Assembly (NCBI GenBank): GCA_028716525.1 | Contig: JAQUPQ010000006.1 | Location: 62,001-126,000 of the forward strand | Length of the DNA: 64,000 bases | Direction: 5' to 3' | Source of the DNA: Terriglobia bacterium | Lineage (GTDB): Bacteria; Acidobacteriota; Terriglobia; JAIQFV01 | Shown: positions 42,116 through 58,192 of the stretch, one piece after another | Layout: every line of letters begins with the position of its first letter | Numbering within the stretch: the first letter of the stretch is position 1 | Translations under genes and position numbers: made by a program | The notes under the pieces: model-generated | Seen by the model: the letters and a program-made list of their open reading frames with translations, nothing else | What the model was told of the DNA's origin: nothing | Database searches by the model: none

Positions 42116-43135
42116 TCATCCCCGCGCGAAACGATGCACATATGAAACCAGCTTCTGCCGCACCGTTTCATCATTGAACGTTTGACCTTCACGCAGCTCG
42201 TCGTAAATCTGAAACAGCATATTTTCGACGCACTTGTAGACCTCGATCACGGCATCTTCGACGAGAATGATTTTCTTTCCACCCTTCTGAGCGAAGCGCT
42301 CCGCGAAGGGAAGAAGGAAGACGAACTTGGCGAGATTCCATCCGCCGTAGAGTTGAATTATCTCCATGGTCAAGGAAGAGGCGCGGTCGTCGAAGGGACT
42401 GACTGATCCCCGCCCCGAGAGGCGTGAAGCGGTGGAAGCAATCATGCAGTCTTCGGCAGGACTCGATTCGCGTCCAATCTTTCCGTTGACGAGGCGATAG
42501 GTCGGTTTGCCGCCGAAACCGGGTAGTGTGCCGGGATGTGCCTTCGAGCCGAATTCACGCACCCAGGCAGCAAAGCCGTCGAAATCGAAACGGTCAAAGG
42601 TTTCACGAGCGAGTTCCTTCGGCCATCCGCCCGCCAGCGCCTCCGTAAGACCCAGCGTTTCTTCTTTCTTCTTGTCGGTGGAGTCACCCAAGCGAAATGC
42701 CATCTTGAGCTTCCGCTGATAACGAATTTCCACGCCGGCCTGGCGTAAAACCGTGACCTCGTAACGATTCGGCCTTTTGCCGATGCCCAGGAAACCTTTT
42801 TTACCGAGGCTCGTGAGTTTGACGTTTTGAATGACCACATCGGATTTCACTCCGTTGCGCGCCTCCGCTTCGGTGAAAGCATCGATACCCAGCACCTTCT
42901 GCTCGGCGGCGACAATTTCCTTTCGCTCAATGACCTCGGCGCCTTCGGGAACTTTGGCCATCGCTTTGACGAAAGCAGACGAGGAATCGTCGGCATATGC
43001 CCGCACCGTGACCACATCGCTGGACTGAATCACTTTTTCGTTGACGATGGAAAAGCCGGATGGAATTTGTGGAATCACTTGCTCCCGTGCTCTTTCGATG
43101 GAGTCGGCTTCGACTTCCAGTGTCTGGATGCTCAT
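42116..43135 (-). CDS. Protein of unknown function with a Jag-N-like motif
   Basis: 339 residues, no signal peptide; TCAGAGGGAGGTTGT before ATG. N-terminal half carries the phrase KKGFLGIGKRPNRYEVTV (near 112-130), matching the Jag-N pattern G-F-L-G-I-G followed by a beta strand, preceded by alternating strands typical of that domain. The C-terminal half (about 140-339) is mainly helical, with ETFDRFDFDGFAAWVREFG and FVFLLPFAERFAQKGGKKIILVEDAVIEVY, and was not recognised. Jag-N domains occur in RNA-binding Jag/KhpB proteins; RNA binding here is speculative because no KH or R3H domain is visible. Confidence 0.84.
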   Translation of the reverse strand: MSIQTLEVEADSIERAREQVIPQIPSGFSIVNEKVIQSSDVVTVRAYADDSSSAFVKAMAKVPEGAEVIERKEIVAAEQKVLGIDAFTEAEARNGVKSDVVIQNVKLTSLGKKGFLGIGKRPNRYEVTVLRQAGVEIRYQRKLKMAFRLGDSTDKKKEETLGLTEALAGGWPKELARETFDRFDFDGFAAWVREFGSKAHPGTLPGFGGKPTYRLVNGKIGRESSPAEDCMIASTASRLSGRGSVSPFDDRASSLTMEIIQLYGGWNLAKFVFLLPFAERFAQKGGKKIILVEDAVIEVYKCVENMLFQIYDELREGQTFNDETVRQKLVSYVHRFARG

Positions 43136-43253: not shown

Positions 43254-43541
43254 CTAAGCCTCGCCTCGGTTAATCGCTTTGGCCCTCTTCGCAGCCCACC
43301 ACGGCTGCACCACAAGGAAGTAAACCAGGAAGAGCAGCCCACCAATGATGGGGATGGGATGATCCTGACCGGGCTGAAGTCCCAAAGCTAAGGTGGTCAC
43401 CCACATCAACAGACCGAACCCAATCACTATTTCAAACGACCGCAAGCCTCGCCGCACGTAAATCATCCCGATGGGTCCGAAGAAAAGCGCCAATAGGACA
43501 GCCGCAACTACACTCTTTGGATTCTCAATAGGCTCTTCCAT
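43254..43541 (-). CDS. Small integral membrane protein, TM2-like
   Basis: 95 residues from ATG 43541 (GCAAAGGAGGTACCGAGGCC). Three hydrophobic helices (about 12-30, 33-55, 60-80); the first loop GPIGMIYVRRG recalls the TM2-domain GxFGxHxFY loop but lacks its His. Cytosolic basic C-terminus AAKRAKAINRG. Unknown role in the cluster. Confidence 0.82.
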   Translation of the reverse strand: MEEPIENPKSVVAAVLLALFFGPIGMIYVRRGLRSFEIVIGFGLLMWVTTLALGLQPGQDHPIPIIGGLLFLVYFLVVQPWWAAKRAKAINRGEA

Positions 43542-43704
43542 GGCCTCGGTACCTCCTTTGCAGCAACGACGAGTTGCGATATTCAAAACCGTCTCTCTAA
43601 CTTCTAGGCGCGGTTCCTTTCTCTCCAATCATCAAAGGCCAATGGCGAAGGCTTGACCCTCTGGAGATGTCTGCCGCCACAGGCCAAGTTCGGTGCTGCC
43701 CGAG

Positions 43705-44250
43705 TTAGTCCAATCGTTTAGAAAATGTAAATGCAAACACCTCGATGCTCTTTCCGGGTTTTGTCAAATCCTTGATCGTCCACTCGTGGCCGCCCGTCCC
43801 GGTGAATGTGATCTTCACTTCCACGGGATGGGTCTTTTCCTGGATGTCCCGCAGCACGCCTGTGCCCGAAAAGCCGGTGCTCGGGTCATACGCAAGTTCG
43901 GTCCTCTCAAGCGCGTCGTGTCCGCCGGAGTTGATGGTCAAAAAGAATTTTTTTGTCTCTGCAACATATGTAAGTTTGGCATCGAATACGGGCTGTGCGG
44001 AGACCATCGGTTTGATGGAGAAGACAATCGTCCTGGAGTCGAGCTGTTGTATCTGCACGTTGTCGGCGCGGCTCACGGTGAATTCATTCCCCGAATGCAC
44101 ATACGACATGATGGCGCTCCACCGTCCCAACAAGCGCGCAAATGCCTGCGGAGAATCCCCGGAACCGGCGTGCATTGAACCACTGATCATTGAAAGACCA
44201 ATGCCAAAGCACAGCCCCATCAAAGCCACATACACAGTTCTGCGTCTCAT
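43705..44250 (-). CDS. Secreted protein, DUF1579-like
   Basis: 181 residues; AAAAGGAGAAGGTC before ATG. Signal peptide about 1-28. The phrase LLGRWSAIMSYVHSGNEFTVSRAD and a string of strands (TIVFSIKPM, AKLTYVAETKKFFLTINSGG, TELAYDPSTGFSGTGVL, VEVKITFTGTGGHEW) suggest a beta-barrel of the lipocalin-like type used by DUF1579 proteins. No substrate known. The downstream flank holds a TGTCCAGGTGTGACCCC repeat. Confidence 0.85.
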   Translation of the reverse strand: MRRRTVYVALMGLCFGIGLSMISGSMHAGSGDSPQAFARLLGRWSAIMSYVHSGNEFTVSRADNVQIQQLDSRTIVFSIKPMVSAQPVFDAKLTYVAETKKFFLTINSGGHDALERTELAYDPSTGFSGTGVLRDIQEKTHPVEVKITFTGTGGHEWTIKDLTKPGKSIEVFAFTFSKRLD

Positions 44251-44274
44251 GACCTTCTCCTTTTCAGTCTATCT

Positions 44275-44297
44275 AATGTCCAGGTGTGACCCCTTTC
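44275..44297 (+). repeat. AATGTCCAGGTGTGACCCC repeat copy 1
   Basis: AATGTCCAGGTGTGACCCC followed by TTTC. Its near-exact copy lies at 45230-45251, and an inverted copy at 45112-45129. It is inside an intergenic gap of the cluster (44251-44427). Confidence 0.85.
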
Positions 44298-44427
44298 TTC
44301 TCTTTCAATGTCCCCCTCGGCCCCGATCCGATACCAACACCTTCAAACTTCACGATTCCGTGTGTTTTAACAGATCACCAACGTCAAACTTGGACAAACA
44401 CTTTTGCGCGAACGAAGCACGTCGAGC

Positions 44428-44967
44428 TCACTGGCGCGTGCCCTCAAAATTCTTTAGGTCTAATGTCACGCTGCCAATACTGAATGCTGCAACGCGAGTC
44501 GTACCCTTGGGAACCACGAAAGGAACTTCCAGCTTGTCCCACTTCTCGGCGCCTGAGGAATTCTTGCCAAAGACAAATCCGAGTGGAACCTCGGAGGGTT
44601 TGAGAGGAGGCAAAGGCTTGCGTTCGCCATTTGGCCCTATTTCGTATCGAGACTCCCAACCGCCTAGAGCGCACGGCACCTTCGTTCCATCAAGAAGAGT
44701 GATTTCAAACGACACGTCGCTACTCTTGGTAATTTCAGCCCCGACCCATTGGGTGATTTCCAAGTGAACGACGGCAATCTCAGAAACACCTTTCCCTGTC
44801 AACGCGACTCCGCTAATGGATGGCGGAGTCCATCGCGGATGGAATTCCAGGCCGGTAACCTTCAAATCTAAACCCTTAAACGTATGATGTTCCTGGCCGG
44901 CACCCGGCAGTGCAACAGCAGCTGCCAGCCAGAGTAAGGTCGTCAACACGGTAATTCGTTTTGTCAT
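44428..44967 (-). CDS. Secreted Ig-like protein of unknown function
   Basis: 179 residues; GAGGAGTAAAGGAT before ATG. Signal peptide about 1-24 (ending PGAGQ). Body is beta-rich: HTFKGLDLKVTGLEFHPRW, EIAVVHLEITQWVGAE, SDVSFEITLLDGTKV, VPFVVPKGTTRVAAFSIGSVTLDL. This series resembles DUF4352 / telomeric-repeat-binding-factor-2-like exported domains. It is similar in layout to the proteins at 41365 and 45303, which suggests repeated use of the fold. Confidence 0.86.
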   Translation of the reverse strand: MTKRITVLTTLLWLAAAVALPGAGQEHHTFKGLDLKVTGLEFHPRWTPPSISGVALTGKGVSEIAVVHLEITQWVGAEITKSSDVSFEITLLDGTKVPCALGGWESRYEIGPNGERKPLPPLKPSEVPLGFVFGKNSSGAEKWDKLEVPFVVPKGTTRVAAFSIGSVTLDLKNFEGTRQ

Positions 44968-45096
44968 ATCCTTTACTCCTCATTCCATCGAGAAACCCCC
45001 ACCCCAATTCTGTGCCGTGCCTGGTCTGATCCGAGTTTCCTCCCAGCAGTCCTATTCGAGGGTGCGTGCCCTAGGTTCGACCCGATTGGCTTGACA

Positions 45097-45251
45097 CCCC
45101 TACAGATCTGTGGGGTCACACCTGGACATAAGACAATGCACTCAGCGAGTGCACAATCCAATTCGAGTGATGGGTAACGCGAGATGAAATACCACTTTGC
45201 GTGGCCCATTACAGCAGCTCCCTTCTGTCCAATGTCCAGGTGTGACCCTTT
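45097..45251. repeat. Inverted pair of TGTCCAGGTGTGACCC repeats with a palindromic core
   Basis: GGGGTCACACCTGGACAT at 45112-45129 faces AATGTCCAGGTGTGACCCTTTT at 45230-45251. A near palindrome CCCC(T)ACAGATCTGTGGGG (45097-45115) adjoins the first copy. The intervening 100 bases hold no gene. Together this occupies most of the 335-base gap 44968-45302, in which nothing else was seen. Confidence 0.85.
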
Positions 45252-45302
45252 TCTATGCTGCGGCGCCGCCCTTACTGAATCCGTTGGGGTTTCATGGCCC
45301 CA

Positions 45303-45851
45303 TCAATTCGTGATCCGTATTCCCGCCTTGACCACCGTCATTTCGCCGGCTGCGCTTTTCTGCATCAAGGTCGCCTCCACCACATCCTGAGGAACAATAA
45401 ACAGCAATTTCATTTTTGAGGTCTTTTCGGGATTTCCTCCGATTGAGAAGGTCCCCTTGGCCTGGCCAATTTCCCACTGGTCCTTCCATTGCTCTTCCGG
45501 GTCCCCAGCCTTTGTCGGGAGCGGGCCAACTCCGACTCCAACCGCGGGTACCGTCGTCGCCAGGCCATCCTGATTAAATGCGAGGGCAAATTGGTCGAAA
45601 TAGAGCGTTGTAAAAGTCATCGGGGCGCTCCCCAATCGCATTTCCAACTCCAGGACCAGGCATCGCTGCGGAGTCTTGCTGCTGGGCCTGGAGTTCCTGG
45701 GAAGCAGTTTTACGGTGCTGTCAACATCCAACGAGTATGGAAGGTATTTCGCTTCCACGACGTTGTAAGGTCTGAGAGTTCTTTTTTCGGCGCTAAAGAC
45801 ACTGACCACGCCGATGAGGATGATTACAAACAGCATTGCGAGTTTTTTCAT
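45303..45851 (-). CDS. Secreted beta-rich protein of unknown function
   Basis: 182 residues; CTGGAGAAACCACA before ATG. Signal peptide about 1-21 (MKKLAMLFVIILIGVVSVFS). Body: LPYSLDVDSTVKLLP, RCLVLELEMRLGSAPMTF, LYFDQFALAFNQDG and MKLLFIVPQDVVEATL. Same kind of Ig-like domain as neighbours at 44428 and 41365. Function unknown. Confidence 0.85.
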   Translation of the reverse strand: MKKLAMLFVIILIGVVSVFSAEKRTLRPYNVVEAKYLPYSLDVDSTVKLLPRNSRPSSKTPQRCLVLELEMRLGSAPMTFTTLYFDQFALAFNQDGLATTVPAVGVGVGPLPTKAGDPEEQWKDQWEIGQAKGTFSIGGNPEKTSKMKLLFIVPQDVVEATLMQKSAAGEMTVVKAGIRITN

Positions 45852-46006
45852 TGTGGTTTCTCCAGAAATGGATGGTTCTCATCCCGCCCGTTTATCGAAG
45901 TCACTTTTTGGCCCTCTTTCGTTTCAGCGAGGGCTCGCAATTTCAGCATTCGTGGCAATGTCGACCGGCATCTTTCCCGCTCATTTTCGCCTTTGCCTGT
46001 TTACGC

Positions 46007-46738
46007 CTATTTCGGAGCAGGCTTCTGCTCATGGCTCAGTGCACTGACGAGCCGGGCCCCATGCCAGGGGCAAAAGGTCCATGCGCCGTCGAGTTTCTCC
46101 CCGTCGACCGGACACGTTTTCTGCGGAATCAGCGATCCCAGCGGCAAATGCCACTTGAAAACGCTGTCGTTCACTTGAATGGAGAAGCTGCCTTCTTTCC
46201 TGGCATCCGCGATTGGCAGGCCCTTGGCATTGCGTGCGGGAAACAAGAGGAAGTGCATGTTTTGTCCCAGGGGGCCCATCATGTTGCTCAAAACCGGCTT
46301 CACCATTTGTAGAAAATTCCGCAGGTCCGGTTCGAAGCGTTCATCGCCTACAGGATGGTAGCGCACGCCGCTGGAGTCCAGCAGTTGCGTCGTTTCCCGA
46401 ATGGTCGCTTCGGGCTTGAAGCTCACGCCGCCCAGAGAACCGATTTGTCCATCCACAGCCACCACCAACATGTAGGGTCGAAGCACTTTCAGAAAACCCT
46501 CCACTTGGGCAGGCGAGATGGTGGCGTCCTGCGCAAAGCTGACTTTCCAAAACTCTTCCGGAATCCACCACGCGAGCTTCATGGTATCGGCCTGCTTCGA
46601 CATCTTTTGGGTCTCTTGAACCAGCGTGGTTAGATCGACGGCACTTTCCTGCGCCGGAACAATTCCCGGAAGAAAGAACAGCGCCGCGACCATGACGCCG
46701 AAGCATTGATCGACGAACCAGAACCGTCGTGTACGCAT
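46007..46738 (-). CDS. Exported protein with a C-terminal zinc ribbon
   Basis: 243 residues; signal peptide about 1-30 (ending PAQ). A helical N-terminal part (about 35-110: VDLTTLVQETQKMSKQADTMK, then LAWWIPEEFWKVSF, VEGFLKVLRPYMLVVAVDGQ) is followed by a loop, then a zinc ribbon CPVDGEKLDGAWTFCPWHG (two Cys plus Cys/His). The exported ribbon is unusual because such modules are mostly cytosolic. Ribosome site AAAGGTGGCACGAGCGT. Function unknown. Confidence 0.85.
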   Translation of the reverse strand: MRTRRFWFVDQCFGVMVAALFFLPGIVPAQESAVDLTTLVQETQKMSKQADTMKLAWWIPEEFWKVSFAQDATISPAQVEGFLKVLRPYMLVVAVDGQIGSLGGVSFKPEATIRETTQLLDSSGVRYHPVGDERFEPDLRNFLQMVKPVLSNMMGPLGQNMHFLLFPARNAKGLPIADARKEGSFSIQVNDSVFKWHLPLGSLIPQKTCPVDGEKLDGAWTFCPWHGARLVSALSHEQKPAPK

Positions 46739-46834
46739 ACGCTCGTGCCACCTTTCTTATGCCCCTCAAAGCTGCCCGCTCGAGCCGGCCGTGTTTTTCC
46801 GTGTTCCCGAGGAACCCAAAGTCCGTTTGCACAA

Positions 46835-47026
46835 CTAATGCGTCACGGGTTGATCTTCTTCAGCGAGCTCCCGTTCAATATCCACGCGATTTTCGAAGCG
46901 GGTAATATTGCATTTCTCGCAACGCAGTTTCACGATAGGGCTGGGTCCGCCCCCGAAAACATGCACGCCTTCGGTGGTGATATCCATTCTTTCTCCGCAC
47001 TGCCGACACTTCAGTTTCTTTTCCAT
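46835..47026 (-). CDS. Very small zinc-ribbon protein
   Basis: 63 residues. LKCRQCGERMDI and LRCEKCNI form one zinc ribbon; the last 15 residues are acidic. TTGGAGGAAAAAC precedes ATG. 18 bases after the gene at 47045. Function unknown. Confidence 0.84.
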   Translation of the reverse strand: MEKKLKCRQCGERMDITTEGVHVFGGGPSPIVKLRCEKCNITRFENRVDIERELAEEDQPVTH

Positions 47027-47044
47027 GTTTTTCCTCCAAGGTTG

Positions 47045-47650
47045 TTAGTGTGTTCCACTTGCGGTTACAGGTTCCGGGTTGGATTGCAGAAACAGATGAC
47101 CCGGCCGGAACAGCCGGTCGTATTCGATTTGACAGGTGGTCCAATTCTGAGTGTTTTCTTTGAGTTCCAGGACGGCGGCCTGGCGAACGCATTCATAACC
47201 GGCCTTCAAATCGGGATTGGAGCGCATGAACTTCACGACCACCAGCTGACCCACTTCATCGAACACCGGCAGGAGCCAGCGGTTTTGGCTCAACATGAGC
47301 CCGAGATGGTCCAGATGTTTCTCGTTGGTGGGATCGATCAAGTGCTCGGAATCCAGCGGATCCTCGGGCCGGTCCAGGAATCGAATTCCGAAGATCAGGA
47401 GGGTCCCGGAAGGCACCGTCACGGCGCCACAGCGGAACTGGATGGGAATAGATCCCGCCAAACCGGCGGCATCGCTGCGCGCCAACTTGATTCCCAGATA
47501 GGTTTCACTGCCACCCTGGGCATTCCACAATCGTTCCATGAAAGCGCCCAGATGAGCTGCCCGCACTTTTGCCAGACTCTCCTCACCCCACATAACCGGA
47601 AAATTGATGGGTGTCACTTCCACGATTTTGCTCATCGACAGGGTGCCCAT
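47045..47650 (-). CDS. Protein of unknown function
   Basis: 201 residues, no signal peptide; AAGGAGGTCGCCGT before ATG. N-terminal strand-rich segment (MSKIVEVTPINFPVMWGEESLAKV) and helices with RAAHLGAFMERLWNA. C-terminal half includes VLMLSQNRWLLPVF-like and VVKFMRSNPDLKAGYECVRQAAVLELK segments. Reads alpha-beta. Unknown. Confidence 0.82.
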   Translation of the reverse strand: MGTLSMSKIVEVTPINFPVMWGEESLAKVRAAHLGAFMERLWNAQGGSETYLGIKLARSDAAGLAGSIPIQFRCGAVTVPSGTLLIFGIRFLDRPEDPLDSEHLIDPTNEKHLDHLGLMLSQNRWLLPVFDEVGQLVVVKFMRSNPDLKAGYECVRQAAVLELKENTQNWTTCQIEYDRLFRPGHLFLQSNPEPVTASGTH

Positions 47651-47680
47651 ACGGCGACCTCCTTGGAGTTCTTTTGCTCT

Positions 47681-48049
47681 TCATTTCCAGAACTGCCACC
47701 AGGATTTGTCCCGAGGCTCACTCATGTTCGGGAGCGAAACTGAGGTCAGCGAAGCAGGCCGGGAGCCTTCCGAAACGGCCGGTGTAGACTTGGGGCGTTT
47801 AGTGTCGAACTTTGAAGCCCGAACCGCACAGACCGGGCACAGCAGCCAGTCGGTGCTGGACTGCGCCACTAAACCGGTCTTCCACTGCTGGACCGCCTGC
47901 CCTCTCGAGGCTCCGAAAGCCATCATGACGGCTAAGGTGGATTCGTCAGGCTGCAGTCCCCGTGCCACCAGTTCTCGAAAGTCCGATGCGCTGTAAACTT
48001 TTCCCTCCTGCCAGCTGGTCGTGGCATTGCATAAATCACATGTCGCCAT
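47681..48049 (-). CDS. Zinc-ribbon protein with an aromatic C-terminal tail
   Basis: 122 residues; AAAGGGAGGCACT before ATG. Cysteine pairs TCDLCN and LLCPVCAVR bracket a helical segment (DFRELVARGLQPDEST...). A Ser/Pro-rich linker leads to the end KSWWQFWK, a short aromatic/basic tail that could insert in a membrane or mark the protein for recognition. The reverse arrangement of the N-terminal leaders of other cluster proteins is notable. Function unknown. Confidence 0.82.
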   Translation of the reverse strand: MATCDLCNATTSWQEGKVYSASDFRELVARGLQPDESTLAVMMAFGASRGQAVQQWKTGLVAQSSTDWLLCPVCAVRASKFDTKRPKSTPAVSEGSRPASLTSVSLPNMSEPRDKSWWQFWK

Positions 48050-48085
48050 AGTGCCTCCCTTTGAATCTTCGGTTAACGCCCGCGA

Positions 48086-49486
48086 TCACCGCTTCTCTTC
48101 AACAAAAACTTCGACACCTCTCTTCTGAAAATAGGCCACGAGCGCCTCTTTAGCTTCTTTGCCTGTCGACCGGAGATGAAATTCGTCTTTCACCCAGGTC
48201 CTGCTTTGATTGGGAATGGGGCCTGTGAACTTGAGATTGAAATCGTAAACAGGACGGCCCGCTTGAAAGGATCCTTTGACTTGAACTCTTCGGATGGAGG
48301 AGTAAGGAACCGTAATTTGATCGGTGCTCCAGTCCGTCGGCAGAAACGTCATTTTTTCTGCAGACAGAATGAGAGGACCGGAGCAACCGGCCAGGGCATG
48401 GTCATGGTAGAAATCCGGCAGCCGCACGCCTTTCAAATCGGCATGATAATGATGCGGAGCTTGAAACCCCTTGCTGACGATGTCCTGATAAATCGCCCGG
48501 GCCGCATCAAAATCGCCCTGGTAATACAGGACATCTCCCTTCATCGTCAGGGCGGGAACTGAGGATGGCTCGCGCGATAAAATTTCCGTTACCTGCTTCG
48601 ACGCCGCTTCCCATCGTCCCGCCTGGAGGTAGGCGCGCGCCAGAAGTTCCTTGGTGGAGAGATCGGTCGGATCGAAATCCAGCGACCATTCCAGCCGTTG
48701 CGCCAGGCCTTTTTCGGTTCGAATGGCGGGATTGGGGAAGCGCCGGCGCAATCCCATCCGGCTAAGGGCATCCCGAATCGCTTCATCCTTTTTGGGTTCG
48801 AACAGATCCCAACTGACTTGATCCAGTGGCGCATCGATTTTCTGAGAATATAAACGCGACACTTGGCGGCCGTCGATGAACGTTCCCGGCCCCACATCCG
48901 CTTCATATCCCTGCGTCGTAATCCCGACGCACTCCCCCGCCAGAGTGAATACCGGGACCCCGCGTGTGAAAGCGTCCCATTGCAGATTGGTTGAAACCAG
49001 CATGGCACCCGACGGTAATTCATGGTGGGCGATTATTTTCCCGCTGCGCAGGCGGGCAGGCTGCTCCCCCTTGGGATGGGGAGCCACAAATATGGAATTG
49101 CCGGTGACCGGCGCGGCCGCCGACGACAATTCCGTGAACGGGGCATTAAACGTGGGAATTTTCAGCAGCGCCAAGTCGGCTTCCGGATCAAGGGCTTTCA
49201 CGATGACCTGGTCGTAGACGTCGCCGCAGGCGGTATACACCTGCAATCGTGCGGCCTGTTCGATGAGATGAAAGTTGGTGAGCAACAAACCATTGGAGCT
49301 GATCAAAAATCCATTTCCGCGCAGAATTTCAGCCCCGTCAGGGGCCAGGTTGATCAGTCGGACAATGGAGTTCTGTACACGGTGGGTGCGCTCTTCACTC
49401 CACTCCTGCGCCCGGAGAACCTGGCCCGGGAACACGATCCCCGCAAGAAAAACACCGATCCAGCTTACCGCCCGCTTCGCCTTCAT
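48086..49486 (-). CDS. Secreted trypsin/HtrA-fold protein with TPR; catalytic Ser replaced by Arg
   Basis: 466 residues from ATG 49486 (GAAAGGAGGGCAC); an Arg-rich in-frame extension to 49606 has no support. Signal peptide to about 27. Protease-like domain about 30-235 with the expected His73 (LLTNFHLIEQA) and Asp104 (DPEADLALLKI), but the GNSGGP site reads FTRGVP with Arg175 where Ser should be. Thus probably inactive as a protease. A TPR-like helical part (about 285-355: STKELLARAYLQAGRWEAASKQ, then MKGDVLYYQGDFDAARAIY) and a C-terminal beta domain (about 370-460) that recalls a PH/GRAM fold follow. Exported; 73 bases from the second protease-like gene. Confidence 0.88.
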   Translation of the reverse strand: MKAKRAVSWIGVFLAGIVFPGQVLRAQEWSEERTHRVQNSIVRLINLAPDGAEILRGNGFLISSNGLLLTNFHLIEQAARLQVYTACGDVYDQVIVKALDPEADLALLKIPTFNAPFTELSSAAAPVTGNSIFVAPHPKGEQPARLRSGKIIAHHELPSGAMLVSTNLQWDAFTRGVPVFTLAGECVGITTQGYEADVGPGTFIDGRQVSRLYSQKIDAPLDQVSWDLFEPKKDEAIRDALSRMGLRRRFPNPAIRTEKGLAQRLEWSLDFDPTDLSTKELLARAYLQAGRWEAASKQVTEILSREPSSVPALTMKGDVLYYQGDFDAARAIYQDIVSKGFQAPHHYHADLKGVRLPDFYHDHALAGCSGPLILSAEKMTFLPTDWSTDQITVPYSSIRRVQVKGSFQAGRPVYDFNLKFTGPIPNQSRTWVKDEFHLRSTGKEAKEALVAYFQKRGVEVFVEEKR

Positions 49487-49559
49487 GTGCCCTCCTTTCC
49501 TGGAACGCAAGGGATTCACGCCCTGCGCCCATGGTCCCGCACTCATTTGTGAGCGCAAT

Positions 49560-51038
49560 CTATTCCGCGGTCTCCTTCTCTTTTTCCTTCTGCTTCTTGG
49601 CATCACGCGTCATCTGTTTCCAAGATCGAAGTTTGGCCTGAAGATCCCACATCTTCTGATTCTTCAGTTCGCTCCAGGGAACGGTGTAGGCGTCAAAACT
49701 CCAAATCGATTCGGCTTCCTTATCCTTTCCATCGGAAGGATCCTTATAAAACACCGCCAACGACAACCGCGGCATATCTTCGGTGGACTCCAGGCGCGAC
49801 AACAAACCCGCCAATTCAATAGCGGTCGTCAGATTCGTCGTGGTCTGCAGGAAAAGGGGCAGATAGGTGGAGATGCTATAACTGATTTGAACTTTTGAAA
49901 TTTTTCCCTTGGATTCCCCCTTCTTACCGTAAAGCTGATGTCCGATGTCGAGCGGGCCGGGCGGCACGGAATTCATCAAACCGGGAGTCAGTGGAATCAG
50001 CACGTCATCCTGCCCCTCTCCCACCACAAAAATTTCATTGAATCCAAAAGAAAGGTTGGAGATCAGGCGCCGATGTTCGGCCACCTCGAACGGATCCGCC
50101 AAGAAAATCTCGGCGCTCGTGGTGCCATAGGCGTTCAATTCCTTGATCAACTCGGCTTGCAGCTTGGAGGTTACCGTGTTGATCTGTTCCCACTTCACGC
50201 GGCGGTCCCGCATGTCAAAATTGTTGACCCGGACTTTTTCGATGATGGCGAGTCGCTTGGCTTCCACCAAGGCGGGATCAAACGGTTGGAAGGGCTTGCG
50301 TGTTTTGACGAATTCCGCAAAGGGTGTACCGGTCTTCTCGCCCATCAATCCGCGTACATAATTGATCGGAACCAGAAAACCCAGGCTTTCGTTGAAGAGC
50401 CGATAAAATGAAACCATTCCCACGGTCTCTCCGCGATCATTCAGCGCCGGCCCACCGGTAGCAGAGCGATTGACGGGATCGGCGAGTTGATGCAGGCGCA
50501 ATCCCCGCTTGGAGTCCCGAATGGCCGCCACCAACGAATCGGTGGCCGAGATGAAGGTTCCCAGAGGACGCGACAGAACCACCAGGGTTTCTCCGACACG
50601 TGTACGGTCGGAATCGCCCAACGTCACCACAGGCAAGGCCGTGGCGGGAATTTTGAGGATGGCAATGTCTTTGCGCGGATCGACGCTGACCACGGAAACA
50701 TCGCGAAATTTTCGGCCGTCGGGAAGGAGGACTTCAATACTTTCTGCATCGGCGAGGGGCTGATAGGCCGTTACAAGAATGCCGCTGGGATCGACAAAGA
50801 AACAACTGAATTTCTCAATGTAGCTCCCGTCGACATCCAACGTGGCCACCAGACCTACCGCCTTGCCGTACGTGTCCACGATCTCGGGCAAGGGCTTCAG
50901 CTTGGCGTCCTGTGTGAAGGATGGAATACAGCAGATCCCCATCCACAGCACGAAAATCAGCGAATGAATGATTTTCAAATCCATGCGGTGTTTCAGGATT
51001 CTTGGAGCAACGCTCAACCGTTCGGCTTGGCATTCCAT
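49560..51038 (-). CDS. Secreted trypsin/HtrA-fold protein; His and Ser of the triad replaced
   Basis: 492 residues from ATG 51038 (GAGGAGGTTCTTCG). Signal peptide to about 42 (long n-region). Protease-like domain about 50-235: the His site reads TAYQPLADA with Gln93, Asp124 is kept (VDPRKDIAILKI), and the Ser site reads RSATGGPAL with Thr194. The remaining fold features (LGDSDRTRVGETLVVLSRPLG, INYVRGLMG) are retained. The C-terminal half (about 250-492) is not recognised and ends in a Lys/Glu-rich tail. Inactive as a serine protease by pattern; a substrate-binding or sensing role is inferred. Adjacent to the other pseudoprotease, same direction. Confidence 0.87.
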   Translation of the reverse strand: MECQAERLSVAPRILKHRMDLKIIHSLIFVLWMGICCIPSFTQDAKLKPLPEIVDTYGKAVGLVATLDVDGSYIEKFSCFFVDPSGILVTAYQPLADAESIEVLLPDGRKFRDVSVVSVDPRKDIAILKIPATALPVVTLGDSDRTRVGETLVVLSRPLGTFISATDSLVAAIRDSKRGLRLHQLADPVNRSATGGPALNDRGETVGMVSFYRLFNESLGFLVPINYVRGLMGEKTGTPFAEFVKTRKPFQPFDPALVEAKRLAIIEKVRVNNFDMRDRRVKWEQINTVTSKLQAELIKELNAYGTTSAEIFLADPFEVAEHRRLISNLSFGFNEIFVVGEGQDDVLIPLTPGLMNSVPPGPLDIGHQLYGKKGESKGKISKVQISYSISTYLPLFLQTTTNLTTAIELAGLLSRLESTEDMPRLSLAVFYKDPSDGKDKEAESIWSFDAYTVPWSELKNQKMWDLQAKLRSWKQMTRDAKKQKEKEKETAE

Positions 51039-51166
51039 CGAAGAACCTCCTCGGATGTCGGTACTCTTAATCATTGCCGTAAATCACATTTATTCCGTTC
51101 GAAGACCCATGGGGCATAAGGAATCGGCGGTTTGCCCCATGGATTTTTTGCGACCTTGCAGCTCTC

Positions 51167-51397
51167 CTACTCCCCTTGTACTCCCGAAATCTCGATCTCC
51201 GTTCGGCACTTGATGCACCGGAATTTGGTCGTCCACACGGGAAAATCAAACAGAAAGGGCGACTGCTTCTTAATTTCGCGAATGACTGCCACGCGGTTGT
51301 AAATCGTGCGGCATTGCGGGCACACGGGATCTCTGCCTGTTGCAAAGCCCGTGGGTGTGGATCCACTTTTGCTCGACATCCAATCGAATATGCCCAT
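51167..51397 (-). CDS. Small zinc-ribbon protein with amphipathic leader
   Basis: 76 residues from ATG 51397 (CAGGAGGCAATCTG). Leader MGIFDWMSSKSGSTP, then zinc-binding VCPQCRTIYN and FRCIKCRTEIEI. Similar layout to the protein at 40492. Function unknown. Confidence 0.84.
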   Translation of the reverse strand: MGIFDWMSSKSGSTPTGFATGRDPVCPQCRTIYNRVAVIREIKKQSPFLFDFPVWTTKFRCIKCRTEIEISGVQGE

Positions 51398-51458
51398 CAG
51401 ATTGCCTCCTGACACCAGGCGTGAAATCCGCATCATTCATTCTGTCGATACGCCTCGT

Positions 51459-52124
51459 TCAAGGGTGCGGTACCACTTTCCAAGTGTTGCCGTTCAGCTC
51501 CAGCCAAATCTCGTCATTCTTCACGGCCAGAGAAAACCGTGGAATTTCCTTGGCTTCTTTAGAGAGCAGCGTGTTTGATATCCGCGTTTTGAGATCAAAC
51601 TTCTCATCTCTGGCTTTTGGAACATTCTTTCGGCGGTTGTAGTCGAAGTGTTTTTCGGATTCGTCATTCCCCGTCAGCTCCAAAGCATCCTCATAGGCAT
51701 GGAGAATGTAGGGTCCGGCCGGAAACTGTTTGTCTTGGATCGAAAATGGAAATTCAGAATGGAGAATCCCGATGAGGGTGAAACTCCCCTTCGTCCCATC
51801 CGCTTTCGTAAAAGAGCCATGAAAACCGTAAGTCTTACCCGAACTCTCTCCCACCAGCCGGGCACCGTTGGCCAGCCGGACACCAAAACAAGTTTCTGCG
51901 CTCACGTGCTTCATTTTGGTGAAAGGAAAAATGTACGACTCCGGAAACAGCTTCTCAGCCTCATTCAAACTTGTGATGAGTCGGAAGCTGTCCTCTTGTG
52001 AAAGAGTTTCAGGCGGTCCCGCCAACCCTTGTGCGGTTTTCGATGACGCACCGGCCTGCGGGAGCAAGGCCGTTGGTGTAAAGGCGAGAAGCATAAAAAC
52101 CATGAAACTCCAGATCCGATTCAC
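51459..52124 (-). CDS. Exported protein of unknown function (GTG start)
   Basis: 221 residues from GTG 52124, chosen because TCAGGAGAAATTACC precedes it and a signal peptide (VNRIWSFMVFMLLAF..., to about 24) follows; the in-frame ATG upstream has no ribosome site and a non-leader sequence. Domain with YIFPFTKMKHVSAETCFGVRLANG, KTYGFHGSFTKADG, FTLIGILHSEFPF and a C-terminal IWLELNGNTWKVVPHP, all short strands. A compact beta domain; function unknown. Confidence 0.82.
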   Translation of the reverse strand: MNRIWSFMVFMLLAFTPTALLPQAGASSKTAQGLAGPPETLSQEDSFRLITSLNEAEKLFPESYIFPFTKMKHVSAETCFGVRLANGARLVGESSGKTYGFHGSFTKADGTKGSFTLIGILHSEFPFSIQDKQFPAGPYILHAYEDALELTGNDESEKHFDYNRRKNVPKARDEKFDLKTRISNTLLSKEAKEIPRFSLAVKNDEIWLELNGNTWKVVPHP

Positions 52125-52244
52125 GGTAATTTCTCCTGAGCTCCAGGTTGATGTTGGAACTGGCCTCGACCGCTTGCTGCGCGGCGGATCACGCCGCCTA
52201 TCTATTCCATCGCACACATCCACAATAGCGGTAGGGTCTGGCGG

Positions 52245-52937
52245 TCACACCGGTTGAAGAGTCAAGGCATCGACAGCCTGTATTGCTTTGGTCATGGCAG
52301 AGCATTTCTGCTCCCGCACGAGTGTCGTCAAACGATTGGCCGTCTCAAAATCCAATCGAATTTGCCCGGCTCTCATGGAGTCCACGCGAGAGAGAAAACG
52401 ATGCTCAATTTCGGCGAGTCCGCATCCTTTAGCCACGTAGCTCAAGAGAAGATAGGCGTTGTAATCGATGGGATTGGTCAAAAGACCGTGAGCCGCCTGG
52501 CACCAAAAGTAAAGGGCTCGAGGCGCACTGCCCAATCGCCACTCCGTTTCTCCCATATCTGTGAGAAGGAGGCTCTTTCGTTTGGCTTGGGCCAGACCTC
52601 GCCCCAGGACTTCCTGCGATCGCCGCAACTGACCGGTGGAGCGATAGGCACTCGCGAGCCATTTGTAGGGAAGATCAAAATCAGCGAAATTGGACAGCAG
52701 ACCTTCGGCTGCCTTAATGGCCGCCGGGTAGTTTTGCGAGTTCAGCGGATCCAGAACCCGCTGAAAAGAAGGATCACTCCGGAAGGTGCGTTCCTCTTTC
52801 TGCTCTGTGAAGGCCGGCCGCGTGCAGGCTTGTACGTATTCTTCCTCATTGGCGGCGTCAGGTACCGGCCAGGTCTTGCCAATGTCATGGCTCGCATCAT
52901 TTGATTTACTTCCAAACAATTGTCCAAAAAACCCCAT
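52245..52937 (-). CDS. TPR protein with amphipathic leader; first gene of the cluster
   Basis: 230 residues. Leader MGFFGQLFGSKSNDAS, then a disordered stretch and TPR-like helix pairs (about 55-195): SQNYPAAIKAAEGLLSNF, LPYKWLASAYRSTGQLRRSQE, LLLTDMGETEWRLGSAPRALYF and a further pair. ATAAGAGGAGGAGCTC precedes ATG. Being first in the run, it marks the probable promoter-proximal end (52938-53300). TPRs bind partner proteins. Confidence 0.87.
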   Translation of the reverse strand: MGFFGQLFGSKSNDASHDIGKTWPVPDAANEEEYVQACTRPAFTEQKEERTFRSDPSFQRVLDPLNSQNYPAAIKAAEGLLSNFADFDLPYKWLASAYRSTGQLRRSQEVLGRGLAQAKRKSLLLTDMGETEWRLGSAPRALYFWCQAAHGLLTNPIDYNAYLLLSYVAKGCGLAEIEHRFLSRVDSMRAGQIRLDFETANRLTTLVREQKCSAMTKAIQAVDALTLQPV

Positions 52938-55432: not shown

Positions 55433-56698
55433 TTACGAAGGAATGTACTTGGGGAAAAAGGTGCTGACCACCAGCAGCAGCGTCAGCACGATCATGACCA
55501 CGCAGCAAACCCAGGCAATGATGTTGAGGGTACGGGTATTTCGATACTTGCCCATCAGATCCACGCGGTTGCACAACCGCAGCATAAAAATCAGCACAAA
55601 CGGCAGCATGATGCCGTTCAGGACTTGAGAAAGCAGTATGATGGGAACCTGCTTCTCTTCTCTCAACAGCAGCACAGCCAAAGCCCCCAGAAAAATCAAA
55701 CCCGTGTACAAGCCATAAAAGGTCGGAGCTTCATGCACGCGGCGATTGATCCCGGACTCCAATCCCAAGCCTTCACATACATAGTAAGCCGTGGCCAACG
55801 GCAAGATGCACGCCGAAAACAGAGAGGCGTTGCACAATCCGAAGGCAAACAGGGCGCTGGCAAATTTCCCGGCCAAGGGCGCCAGGGCCAACGCCGCGTC
55901 ACCGGCATCGTTGATTTGCCGATGCCCGCTGACGTAAATGGTTGCCGCACAGGCCACGATGATGAAGAAGGCCACCACGTCGGTAATGATGCATCCGATG
56001 ATGACGTCCCAGCGCGACTGCATGTAGTTCTTCAGCTTGACGCCCTTCTCCACGACCGCCGATTGCAAATAAAACTGCATCCACGGAGCAATGGTCGTTC
56101 CGACCAGCCCGATGATCATATAAATATAATTGGTATCCAAATGGACGCTCGGCTGGACGGCTTCGAAGATCGCTTTCTTCCATTGCGGATGCGCCAGAAA
56201 ACCCGAAATCAAATAGGCCACATAAAACACGCAGGCCACCAAAAACACTTTTTCCACGAGCCGGTAGGTTCCTTTCACCACCAGCACCCACACCAGCAGA
56301 GCCCCCAGCGGGACGGCCACGTAGCGGCTCACATGAAACACCGACATGCCCGAGGCCAGCCCGGCGAATTCCGAAATGGTGTTTCCCAAATCGGCCACCA
56401 ACAACATGGCCATCAGAAAAAAGGTGGTGCGAAATCCGTATTCCTCCCGGATCAGGTCGGCCAGACCTTTGCCGGTAACCACGCCCATGCGTGCCACCAT
56501 TTCCTGCACCACGATGAGGGCGATGGTAATGGGGATTAACGTCCACAATAAGGAATAGCCGAAGTGGGCGCCCGCCACGGAGTAGGTGTAAATTCCCCCG
56601 GCATCGTTATCGACATTGGCCGTGACAATCCCCGGTCCCAGGACCATCAGGAAGATGAAGAAGTTGATGCGCCAGCGTCTGAAGCGGGTCGATTTCAT
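55433..56698 (-). CDS. NRAMP-fold divalent cation transporter, atypical metal-site motif
   Basis: 421 residues, about 11 TM helices, LeuT-like fold. TM1 carries GPGIVTANVDNDAGGIYTY instead of the DPGN motif of Mn/Fe NRAMPs, and the TM6 site reads IAPWMQFYLQS in place of the MPHNLYLHS type. In the NRAMP family changes at these positions go with other substrates (for example Mg2+ in NRMT proteins). It lies 24 bases after an MgtE-N/CBS sensor gene, so a linked cation module is likely. Substrate (Mg2+, Mn2+ or other) is not settled by sequence. ATG at 56698; ribosome site weak. Confidence 0.9.
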   Translation of the reverse strand: MKSTRFRRWRINFFIFLMVLGPGIVTANVDNDAGGIYTYSVAGAHFGYSLLWTLIPITIALIVVQEMVARMGVVTGKGLADLIREEYGFRTTFFLMAMLLVADLGNTISEFAGLASGMSVFHVSRYVAVPLGALLVWVLVVKGTYRLVEKVFLVACVFYVAYLISGFLAHPQWKKAIFEAVQPSVHLDTNYIYMIIGLVGTTIAPWMQFYLQSAVVEKGVKLKNYMQSRWDVIIGCIITDVVAFFIIVACAATIYVSGHRQINDAGDAALALAPLAGKFASALFAFGLCNASLFSACILPLATAYYVCEGLGLESGINRRVHEAPTFYGLYTGLIFLGALAVLLLREEKQVPIILLSQVLNGIMLPFVLIFMLRLCNRVDLMGKYRNTRTLNIIAWVCCVVMIVLTLLLVVSTFFPKYIPS

Positions 56699-56722
56699 AA
56701 GAGCGCCAAAGTCGAAGTGAGA

Positions 56723-57964
56723 TTATTTTCTTGCCACCACCAGCTCCAAAACGTCGTCTGCGGTGACGACTCCGAGCAAGCGGCCATGGTCGTCCACCAC
56801 CGGCAAGCTGAGGAGGTTATATTTGTGAAACGAACTGATCACCATTTTTTCGTCGGCGTGCGGCGGGACGGAGATGAGCGGCTCCGTGGAAAGATCCTTC
56901 AACGGCGTCCTGGCCTCCGCCAATAGAATCCGGGCCAGCGGAACCGCGCCCGTCAAGGTGCCATCGGCGTTGATCAAATAAATGGCATGGACAAACTCCA
57001 TCGGGCCCTCAAAGGCCTTCAAAGCGGCGATCACTCCTTCCACGGTCACGGTGTCGGCCACCACGATGAATTCCGTGGTCATCAAACCGCCGGCGGTGTG
57101 CTCTTCGAAACCCAACAGGTCGCGAATGTCCTTGGCTTCTTCAGACTCCATCTTCGACAACACCTCAGCCGTGGTTTCCGGCGACAACTCCTGCAAAATA
57201 TCAGCCGCTTCGTCGGGAGGCATTTCTTCGACAATATCGGCGACGCGATCCGTGGAGATACTTTCCATCAACATCACCTGCATTTCGGTGGGAATCTCCG
57301 AGACGGCTTGCGCCACCGTCTCGTTATCCAAAGATTCGATAACCGACTTCTGTTCGTCGCGACTCAATTCCTCCAAGATATCGGCCAAATCGGCCGGATG
57401 AAGTTCGGCTAAGCGGTTGTAGGAAATGCGCAGCTTAATGCGCCGGGCGGGATCCGCTTCGATCAAGTTCACAAATTCCCAGGGGATCACCTTGGAACGC
57501 AAAAGGCTCGTCAGAGTTCGAATGGTGTGCTTGGCAAATATGCCCTGCAGCAACCGCCGCACCGCCGCCCCCCAGCCGATATTGACGGCAACGATGCGCA
57601 AATCGGTGTGACGTTCGTTGGGGCGGATGTCAAAGTCCACATCGTTCACCCGCACCACCTTTCGGTTGTTCACATCGATGATCTGCTGATCCAGGATATC
57701 TTTCTTCACGCTGATCAAATCGCCGTCCGTCGGATAGGGCTTGATCTGGGATGCCTCCACGCTGGCTTGAAGCGCCCGCACGGAAATCGACTGAATCTGT
57801 TCACGGGTGATGGACAGCATTTCTTTCTTCGGGGTTTTTACGCGGTAGGCCGCCACTCGCAAGGCATTCTGGTTGGGATCGATGCCGAGATCGACCAGGT
57901 TGCCCAAAAATTCGCCGCGCGCATCGTAGGTGGCCAGGTGCTGCAGCTCGGTGAAATAAATCAT
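56723..57964 (-). CDS. MgtE-type N domain plus CBS pair without a channel
   Basis: 413 residues from ATG 57964 (GAGGTGTG; a GTG three bases earlier is possible). N-terminal PRC-barrel-like strands (about 1-160), then the MgtE intracellular N helices (about 190-300: LAELHPADLADILEEL, VIESLDNETVAQAVSEIP, DRVADIVEEMPPDEAADIL, EVLSKMESEEAKDIRDLLGF) and a CBS pair (about 310-413: GLMTTEF, LTGAVPLARILL, VPPHADEKMVISSFHKY, GRLLGVVTADDVLELV). In MgtE channels these domains bind Mg2+ and gate the pore; here the TM part is missing and the neighbour is an NRAMP-fold transporter. Soluble regulatory role inferred. Confidence 0.93.
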   Translation of the reverse strand: MIYFTELQHLATYDARGEFLGNLVDLGIDPNQNALRVAAYRVKTPKKEMLSITREQIQSISVRALQASVEASQIKPYPTDGDLISVKKDILDQQIIDVNNRKVVRVNDVDFDIRPNERHTDLRIVAVNIGWGAAVRRLLQGIFAKHTIRTLTSLLRSKVIPWEFVNLIEADPARRIKLRISYNRLAELHPADLADILEELSRDEQKSVIESLDNETVAQAVSEIPTEMQVMLMESISTDRVADIVEEMPPDEAADILQELSPETTAEVLSKMESEEAKDIRDLLGFEEHTAGGLMTTEFIVVADTVTVEGVIAALKAFEGPMEFVHAIYLINADGTLTGAVPLARILLAEARTPLKDLSTEPLISVPPHADEKMVISSFHKYNLLSLPVVDDHGRLLGVVTADDVLELVVARK

Positions 57965-58192
57965 CACACACCTCGAAGGCTGACCCCCGAAATCGCATTT
58001 TTGAGGGTCGGACCGTGACTCCCGCAGGGTCGTCGCAGTCTATCCCATCCGTTGCGACAAGAGCAATCACCTTTTCAGCAAAAACACAGATAATTCGATG
58101 CGAACGGAGGCTGCTCGGCTTCCTGTCCGCTTGCCGCGCCGATGGAAAATCAAAGGGACAAGAGGGGACGCTTCAGGCCTGAGTTCCGTAGC

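Follow-up and report, generated by a model that had tools for sequence, protein, structure and literature searches.

Do two adjacent secreted proteins of protease type, each with a different broken catalytic triad, still cut their substrates, or has their fold been taken over for another purpose? This question is raised by genes A and B, which follow one another in that order on the minus strand of the window (the whole stretch of 64,000 nucleotides analysed here), with 73 bp between them in its ORF map (Table 1). In our reading, to which we assign a probability of roughly 0.7 on the strength of sequence, structure models and analogy, A and B would be an operon-encoded pair of exported proteins, repurposed as non-catalytic binding or scaffold proteins.

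Table 1. Features of genes A and B and of the neighbouring genes, in positions of the window.
Feature	Position	Strand	Basis and remarks
Gene A, secreted Trypsin_2 pseudoprotease with orphan C-terminal region	49560..51038	-	492 aa; ORF, SD GAGGAGG before ATG 51038
A signal peptide-like hydrophobic N-terminus MDLKIIHSLIFVLWMGICCIPSFTQ	50910..50984	-	Sequence reading; helix 14-36 in AlphaFold2 model
A chymotrypsin-fold domain, aa 48-235	50334..50897	-	pLDDT mostly >90; Foldseek to HtrA proteases
A Gln93 (CAG, TAYQ) in place of catalytic His	50760..50762	-	Translation and alignment
A Asp124 (GAC, DIAIL), catalytic Asp kept	50667..50669	-	Translation and alignment
A Ser192-Ala193-Thr194 (RSATGGP) replacing Gly193-x-Ser195 (oxyanion hole, nucleophile)	50457..50465	-	Translation and alignment
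C-terminal region of A (aa 250-492), lacking clear relatives	49563..50291	-	Search and low-confidence model
Gene B, secreted Trypsin_2 pseudoprotease with TPR and C-terminal domain	48086..49486	-	466 aa; ORF, SD AGGAAAGGAGGG, ATG 49486
B signal peptide MKAKRAVSWIGVFLAGIVFPGQVLRAQ	49406..49486	-	Sequence reading
B chymotrypsin-fold domain, aa 38-218	48833..49375	-	pLDDT mostly >90; Foldseek to HtrA proteases
B His73 (CAT, TNFH), kept	49268..49270	-	Translation and alignment
B Asp104 (GAC, DLALL), kept	49175..49177	-	Translation and alignment
B Phe173-Thr-Arg175-Gly-Val177 (FTRGVP) replacing G-x-S-G-G	48956..48970	-	Translation and alignment
B TPR region, aa ~276-340	48467..48661	-	Pfam TPR_16 (35.2 bits), TPR_19, TPR_14 above cut-off
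B C-terminal domain, aa 345-466, strand-rich, helix at end	48089..48454	-	AlphaFold2 model
Gene 3' of B, 122 aa, two CxxC motifs	47681..48049	-	36 bp past B; operon membership probable
Orphan gene further 3', 201 aa	47045..47650	-	30 bp past the 47681-48049 gene; operon membership probable
Secreted protein upstream of A, no assigned function	51459..52223	-	420 bp before A; perhaps separate unit

Both reading frames (492 codons in A, 466 in B) are complete, with strong ribosome sites and hydrophobic N-termini of the export type, and their third-position GC lies inside the range of the neighbouring genes. The Pfam family Trypsin_2 matches A with 67.2 bits and B with 68.6 bits, against a cut-off of 27.6. 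In the AlphaFold2 models, built from an alignment of 50 rows, the barrels of both proteins are predicted at a pLDDT mostly above 90, and the C-terminal regions (residues 250-492 of A, about 245-466 of B) are poorly modelled. Foldseek searches against the PDB related the A domain to MucD, DegQ, DegP, DegS and HTRA1, and the B domain to DegS, HTRA1, HTRA2 and Deg1, all with a probability of 1.00; the S1C-NTF2 ectodomain of RsgI9 was the top hit for B and came second for A. The label "HtrA-fold" holds for the protease domain by Pfam, AlphaFold2 and Foldseek, but fits the whole proteins less well, as a Pfam scan at E 0.1 found no PDZ domain in either and B carries TPRs in addition. Between these TPRs and the C-terminal domain, B also contains a His-rich stretch, HHYH...YHDH (residues ~342-359, positions 48411-48463), a candidate metal site.

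The structure models served for the fold, and the argument about the active site is based on alignment. A and B were aligned with their 48 closest relatives, which are paralogous rather than orthologous; these contain the catalytic His and Asp in 48 of 48 cases, and Ser and Gly193 in 47 of 48 each. The HDS triad is intact in 130 of about 145 deduplicated trypsin-like domains, the few exceptions including A and B. At the triad columns, A reads Gln/Asp/Thr (QDT, Thr194 being encoded by ACC) and B reads His/Asp/Arg (HDR, Arg175 being encoded by CGC), and direct translation returns exactly the residues first named for both proteins (Q93, D124 and T194 in A; H73, D104 and R175 in B). Position 193 in chymotrypsin numbering is part of the oxyanion hole, and in the Gly193 column A carries Ser192 and B carries Phe173. 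Additionally, the GSG strand motif is replaced by FSC in A, while B has lost the second Gly of SGGP and conserved residues of the next strand. Because several flanking active-site positions are altered together, one sequencing error cannot account for A or B, and this origin of the broken triads is ruled out. The catalytic Asp and several core glycines (G86, G149, G203 and G207 of A, and their equivalents in B) are kept. Elsewhere in the comparison, the "ADS" triads of Chitinophagaceae turned out to be an alignment artefact, the profile alignment showing their His intact (NCHLIDR).

A has thus lost two catalytic residues (His and Ser) and B one (Ser); the oxyanion-hole glycine is gone from both, and the predicted chymotrypsin fold is kept. 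On the aligned sequences, canonical proteolysis by A or B is very unlikely, given Ser (A) or Phe (B) at position 193, the missing His of A, established chemistry and the precedent of MamO. In MamO, a glutamate at position 193 disfavours the active conformation and the oxyanion hole stays shut (PMC4794232). The retention of His and Asp in B is no evidence of activity, since MamO keeps both as well, and their loss in MamO leads to temperature-dependent phenotypes (PMC4794232). The original suggestion that A and B are pseudoproteases is well supported by the damage to triad and oxyanion hole in a retained fold, by intact exported genes and by relatives that keep the catalytic residues.

A, B and the two genes downstream of them probably form one operon. 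Scans of the locus for sigma-70 promoters and terminators gave nothing above chance level. The two downstream genes are as rare as A and B, being almost without relatives in the 200 class genomes searched; a relative of the CxxC protein is a 375-aa frame of genome G087 (L185), at 34% over 80 residues. The wider surroundings (43254-52937) contain about 12 minus-strand genes in a run, mostly with secreted or small products and few Pfam matches. Beyond this run, the 339-aa product of 42116-43135 shows a weak similarity to Jag_N (17.2 bits, under the cut-off), and at 55433-57967 an NRAMP transporter adjoins an MgtE-like protein, the MgtE match covering only model positions 25-252 of 450. The NRAMP-MgtE pair is syntenic in three other genomes altogether, namely both other genomes of the family and G005; the surroundings of A and B are not conserved in these three. 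The host genome is a draft of 4.2 Mb, assembled into 104 contigs with a completeness of 96.5%; judged by its best hits in named genomes, the host is probably a relative of the Acidobacteriota. The genome contains six Trypsin_2 genes, four of which have intact H, D and S motifs and lie on other contigs than A and B. A and B represent its sole broken copies and its sole adjacent pair; the chance that two broken copies of six are the one adjacent pair is 1/15, which is suggestive only.

The losses had initially been read as independent, which is not demonstrated, since the domain tree supports the placement of A and B weakly, on long branches (A 2.2, B 5.66), and an AU test does not reject the two as sisters (p 0.41). 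An older common descent is neither backed nor rejected by this tree. A recent tandem duplication is unsupported, as phmmer scores the match between A and B at no more than about 29-30 bits; outside relatives match A better than B does. A full-length orthologue of A was found neither in the named-genome scan nor among 60 relatives, 399 class genomes and 252 phylum genomes, samples which overlap in part and amount to about 650 phylum genomes. The C-terminal region of A, used as query, returned only itself and one marginal match of 64 aa. B was searched less widely than A: no full-length orthologue was present among the 60 relatives, the TPR and C-terminal region had no relative in the 399 class genomes, and the C-terminal domain was searched in the host genome as well. 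Since the searched genomes hold no orthologue, fixation of the dead state and purifying selection on it are not demonstrable.

In the repurposed pair that we favour, A and B would be exported to the periplasm or the extracellular space, where the barrel and the former substrate cleft would bind other molecules or act as a scaffold, without catalysis. The TPRs and C-terminal domain of B, and the C-terminal region of A, may link this barrel to partners, the TPRs being presumably an obvious site of protein contact. As A and B probably share one transcript, they probably act in one process, perhaps jointly. The mode of action may be like that of MamO or of the S1C domain of RsgI9, binding without cutting. 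Against the repurposed pair it counts that no orthologue was found to show the dead state conserved, that the long branches would fit relaxed constraint too, and that any role of the poorly modelled C-terminal regions is guesswork. The more specific idea of a wholly non-catalytic, bicistronic HtrA-fold pair, working as a two-part binding or sensing complex in the periplasm or outside the cell with no active subunit, we consider unlikely. A pair with both members dead points to the barrel itself as a scaffold for binding that secreted bacterial proteins can reuse, and suggests that such proteins will be mislabelled as proteases wherever genomes are annotated solely from domain matches.

The alternative that survives best is that A and B assemble into a hetero-oligomer for binding or sensing, or that they regulate in trans one of the four active Trypsin_2 proteases, in the style of MamO and MamE; we regard it as a tentative possibility. 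Trimers are common among HtrA-type domains, and the shared strand and close spacing of A and B would suit paired action. In magnetotactic bacteria, where active/inactive pairs (including MamO and inactive MamE copies) evolved repeatedly, MamO activates MamE-dependent proteolysis without catalysis of its own (PMC4794232). However, this activation requires the TauE domain of MamO (PMC4794232), which the Pfam scan did not find in A or B, and no active protease gene is adjacent to them.

Improbable, in our estimate, is that A and B are the decaying remnants of a duplicated protease with no current function. Their domain-tree branches are indeed very long, and both genes are missing from the two other family genomes even though the neighbouring NRAMP-MgtE pair is kept there. 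Decay, however, would sit poorly with complete frames that still have ribosome sites and signal peptides, with a long extra region that is still open in each gene, and with the retention of structural positions (the Asp and the core glycines) while many of the losses fall at the active site. Thr can be a nucleophile in other folds and B has both His and Asp, but a non-canonical activity, with Thr194 of A as nucleophile or a His73-Asp104 dyad of B used for another hydrolysis, is highly improbable in view of the missing His general base and the Ser at 193 in A, and of the Arg at 195 and Phe at 193 that would fill the oxyanion region of B. MamO, with Thr at 195 and with His and Asp kept, speaks against it too, as it dispenses with the nucleophile and its T225A mutant has no defect (PMC4794232).

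Catalytically dead HtrA-type domains are already known, though from few systems, and MamO, from the Magnetospirillum magnetosome, is one of them. Like A and B, MamO combines a Trypsin_2/HtrA-type domain without catalysis, a non-Gly residue at position 193 (Glu in MamO, Ser in A, Phe in B) and another trypsin-like gene in the same gene cluster, and it has Thr at the Ser place, as A does. It differs in having His and Asp, and in possessing both the TauE domain and a metal site of two His residues (H148/H263). Directly before the catalytic Asp, where MamO has H148, A carries Lys123 and B carries Ala103, and neither protein has the L1 Trp at the corresponding position. Its partner MamE is active, whereas A and B are both dead. 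Membership of the MamO family was rejected, as NCBIfam model NF040961 gives 28.7 bits for B and 19.3 bits for A, against a cut-off of 800. RsgI9 of Clostridium thermocellum likewise possesses a secreted S1C-type domain that is protease-like and is reported to bind cellulose or polysaccharide (PMC12203970). RsgI9 belongs to the membrane anti-sigma factors and has an NTF2-like domain, while neither A nor B showed an anti-sigma part. With the HtrA/Deg proteases (DegP, DegQ, DegS, HTRA1, HTRA2), the pair shares the fold of the protease domain and a sequence relationship; A and B are nevertheless not textbook HtrA proteins, since the PDZ domain, the intact triad and the oxyanion glycine are all missing.

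Broken copies also occur in other genomes. In a genome of the same class, a protein at L078:1150-2136 (also L179) reads GSRGGP, with Ser changed to Arg as in B and an otherwise canonical site; its closest relatives (L138, L140, L142, L149, L152) read GSSGGP. A Planctomicrobium MAG contains three consecutive HtrA-like frames (L066:3112-8010) reading HDS, then NDA and NMY. This cluster shares with A and B the adjoining trypsin-like genes with broken triads and resembles the magnetotactic pattern, but an intact HDS copy comes first and the C-termini are PDZ-like by eye. The trypsin-like frame at L012:10374-11366 is degenerate, reading YGG in the triad columns, and an intact HDS gene lies about 1.2 kb away on the opposite strand. 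A literature search found no pseudo-HtrA pairs other than the magnetosome ones. The magnetotactic pattern of duplication followed by loss of catalysis may reach past biomineralisation, as L066 and L012 likewise indicate. Among the known dead HtrA-type domains, A and B represent an unusual variant, in which both copies are dead, the C-termini are new and no active partner is adjacent.
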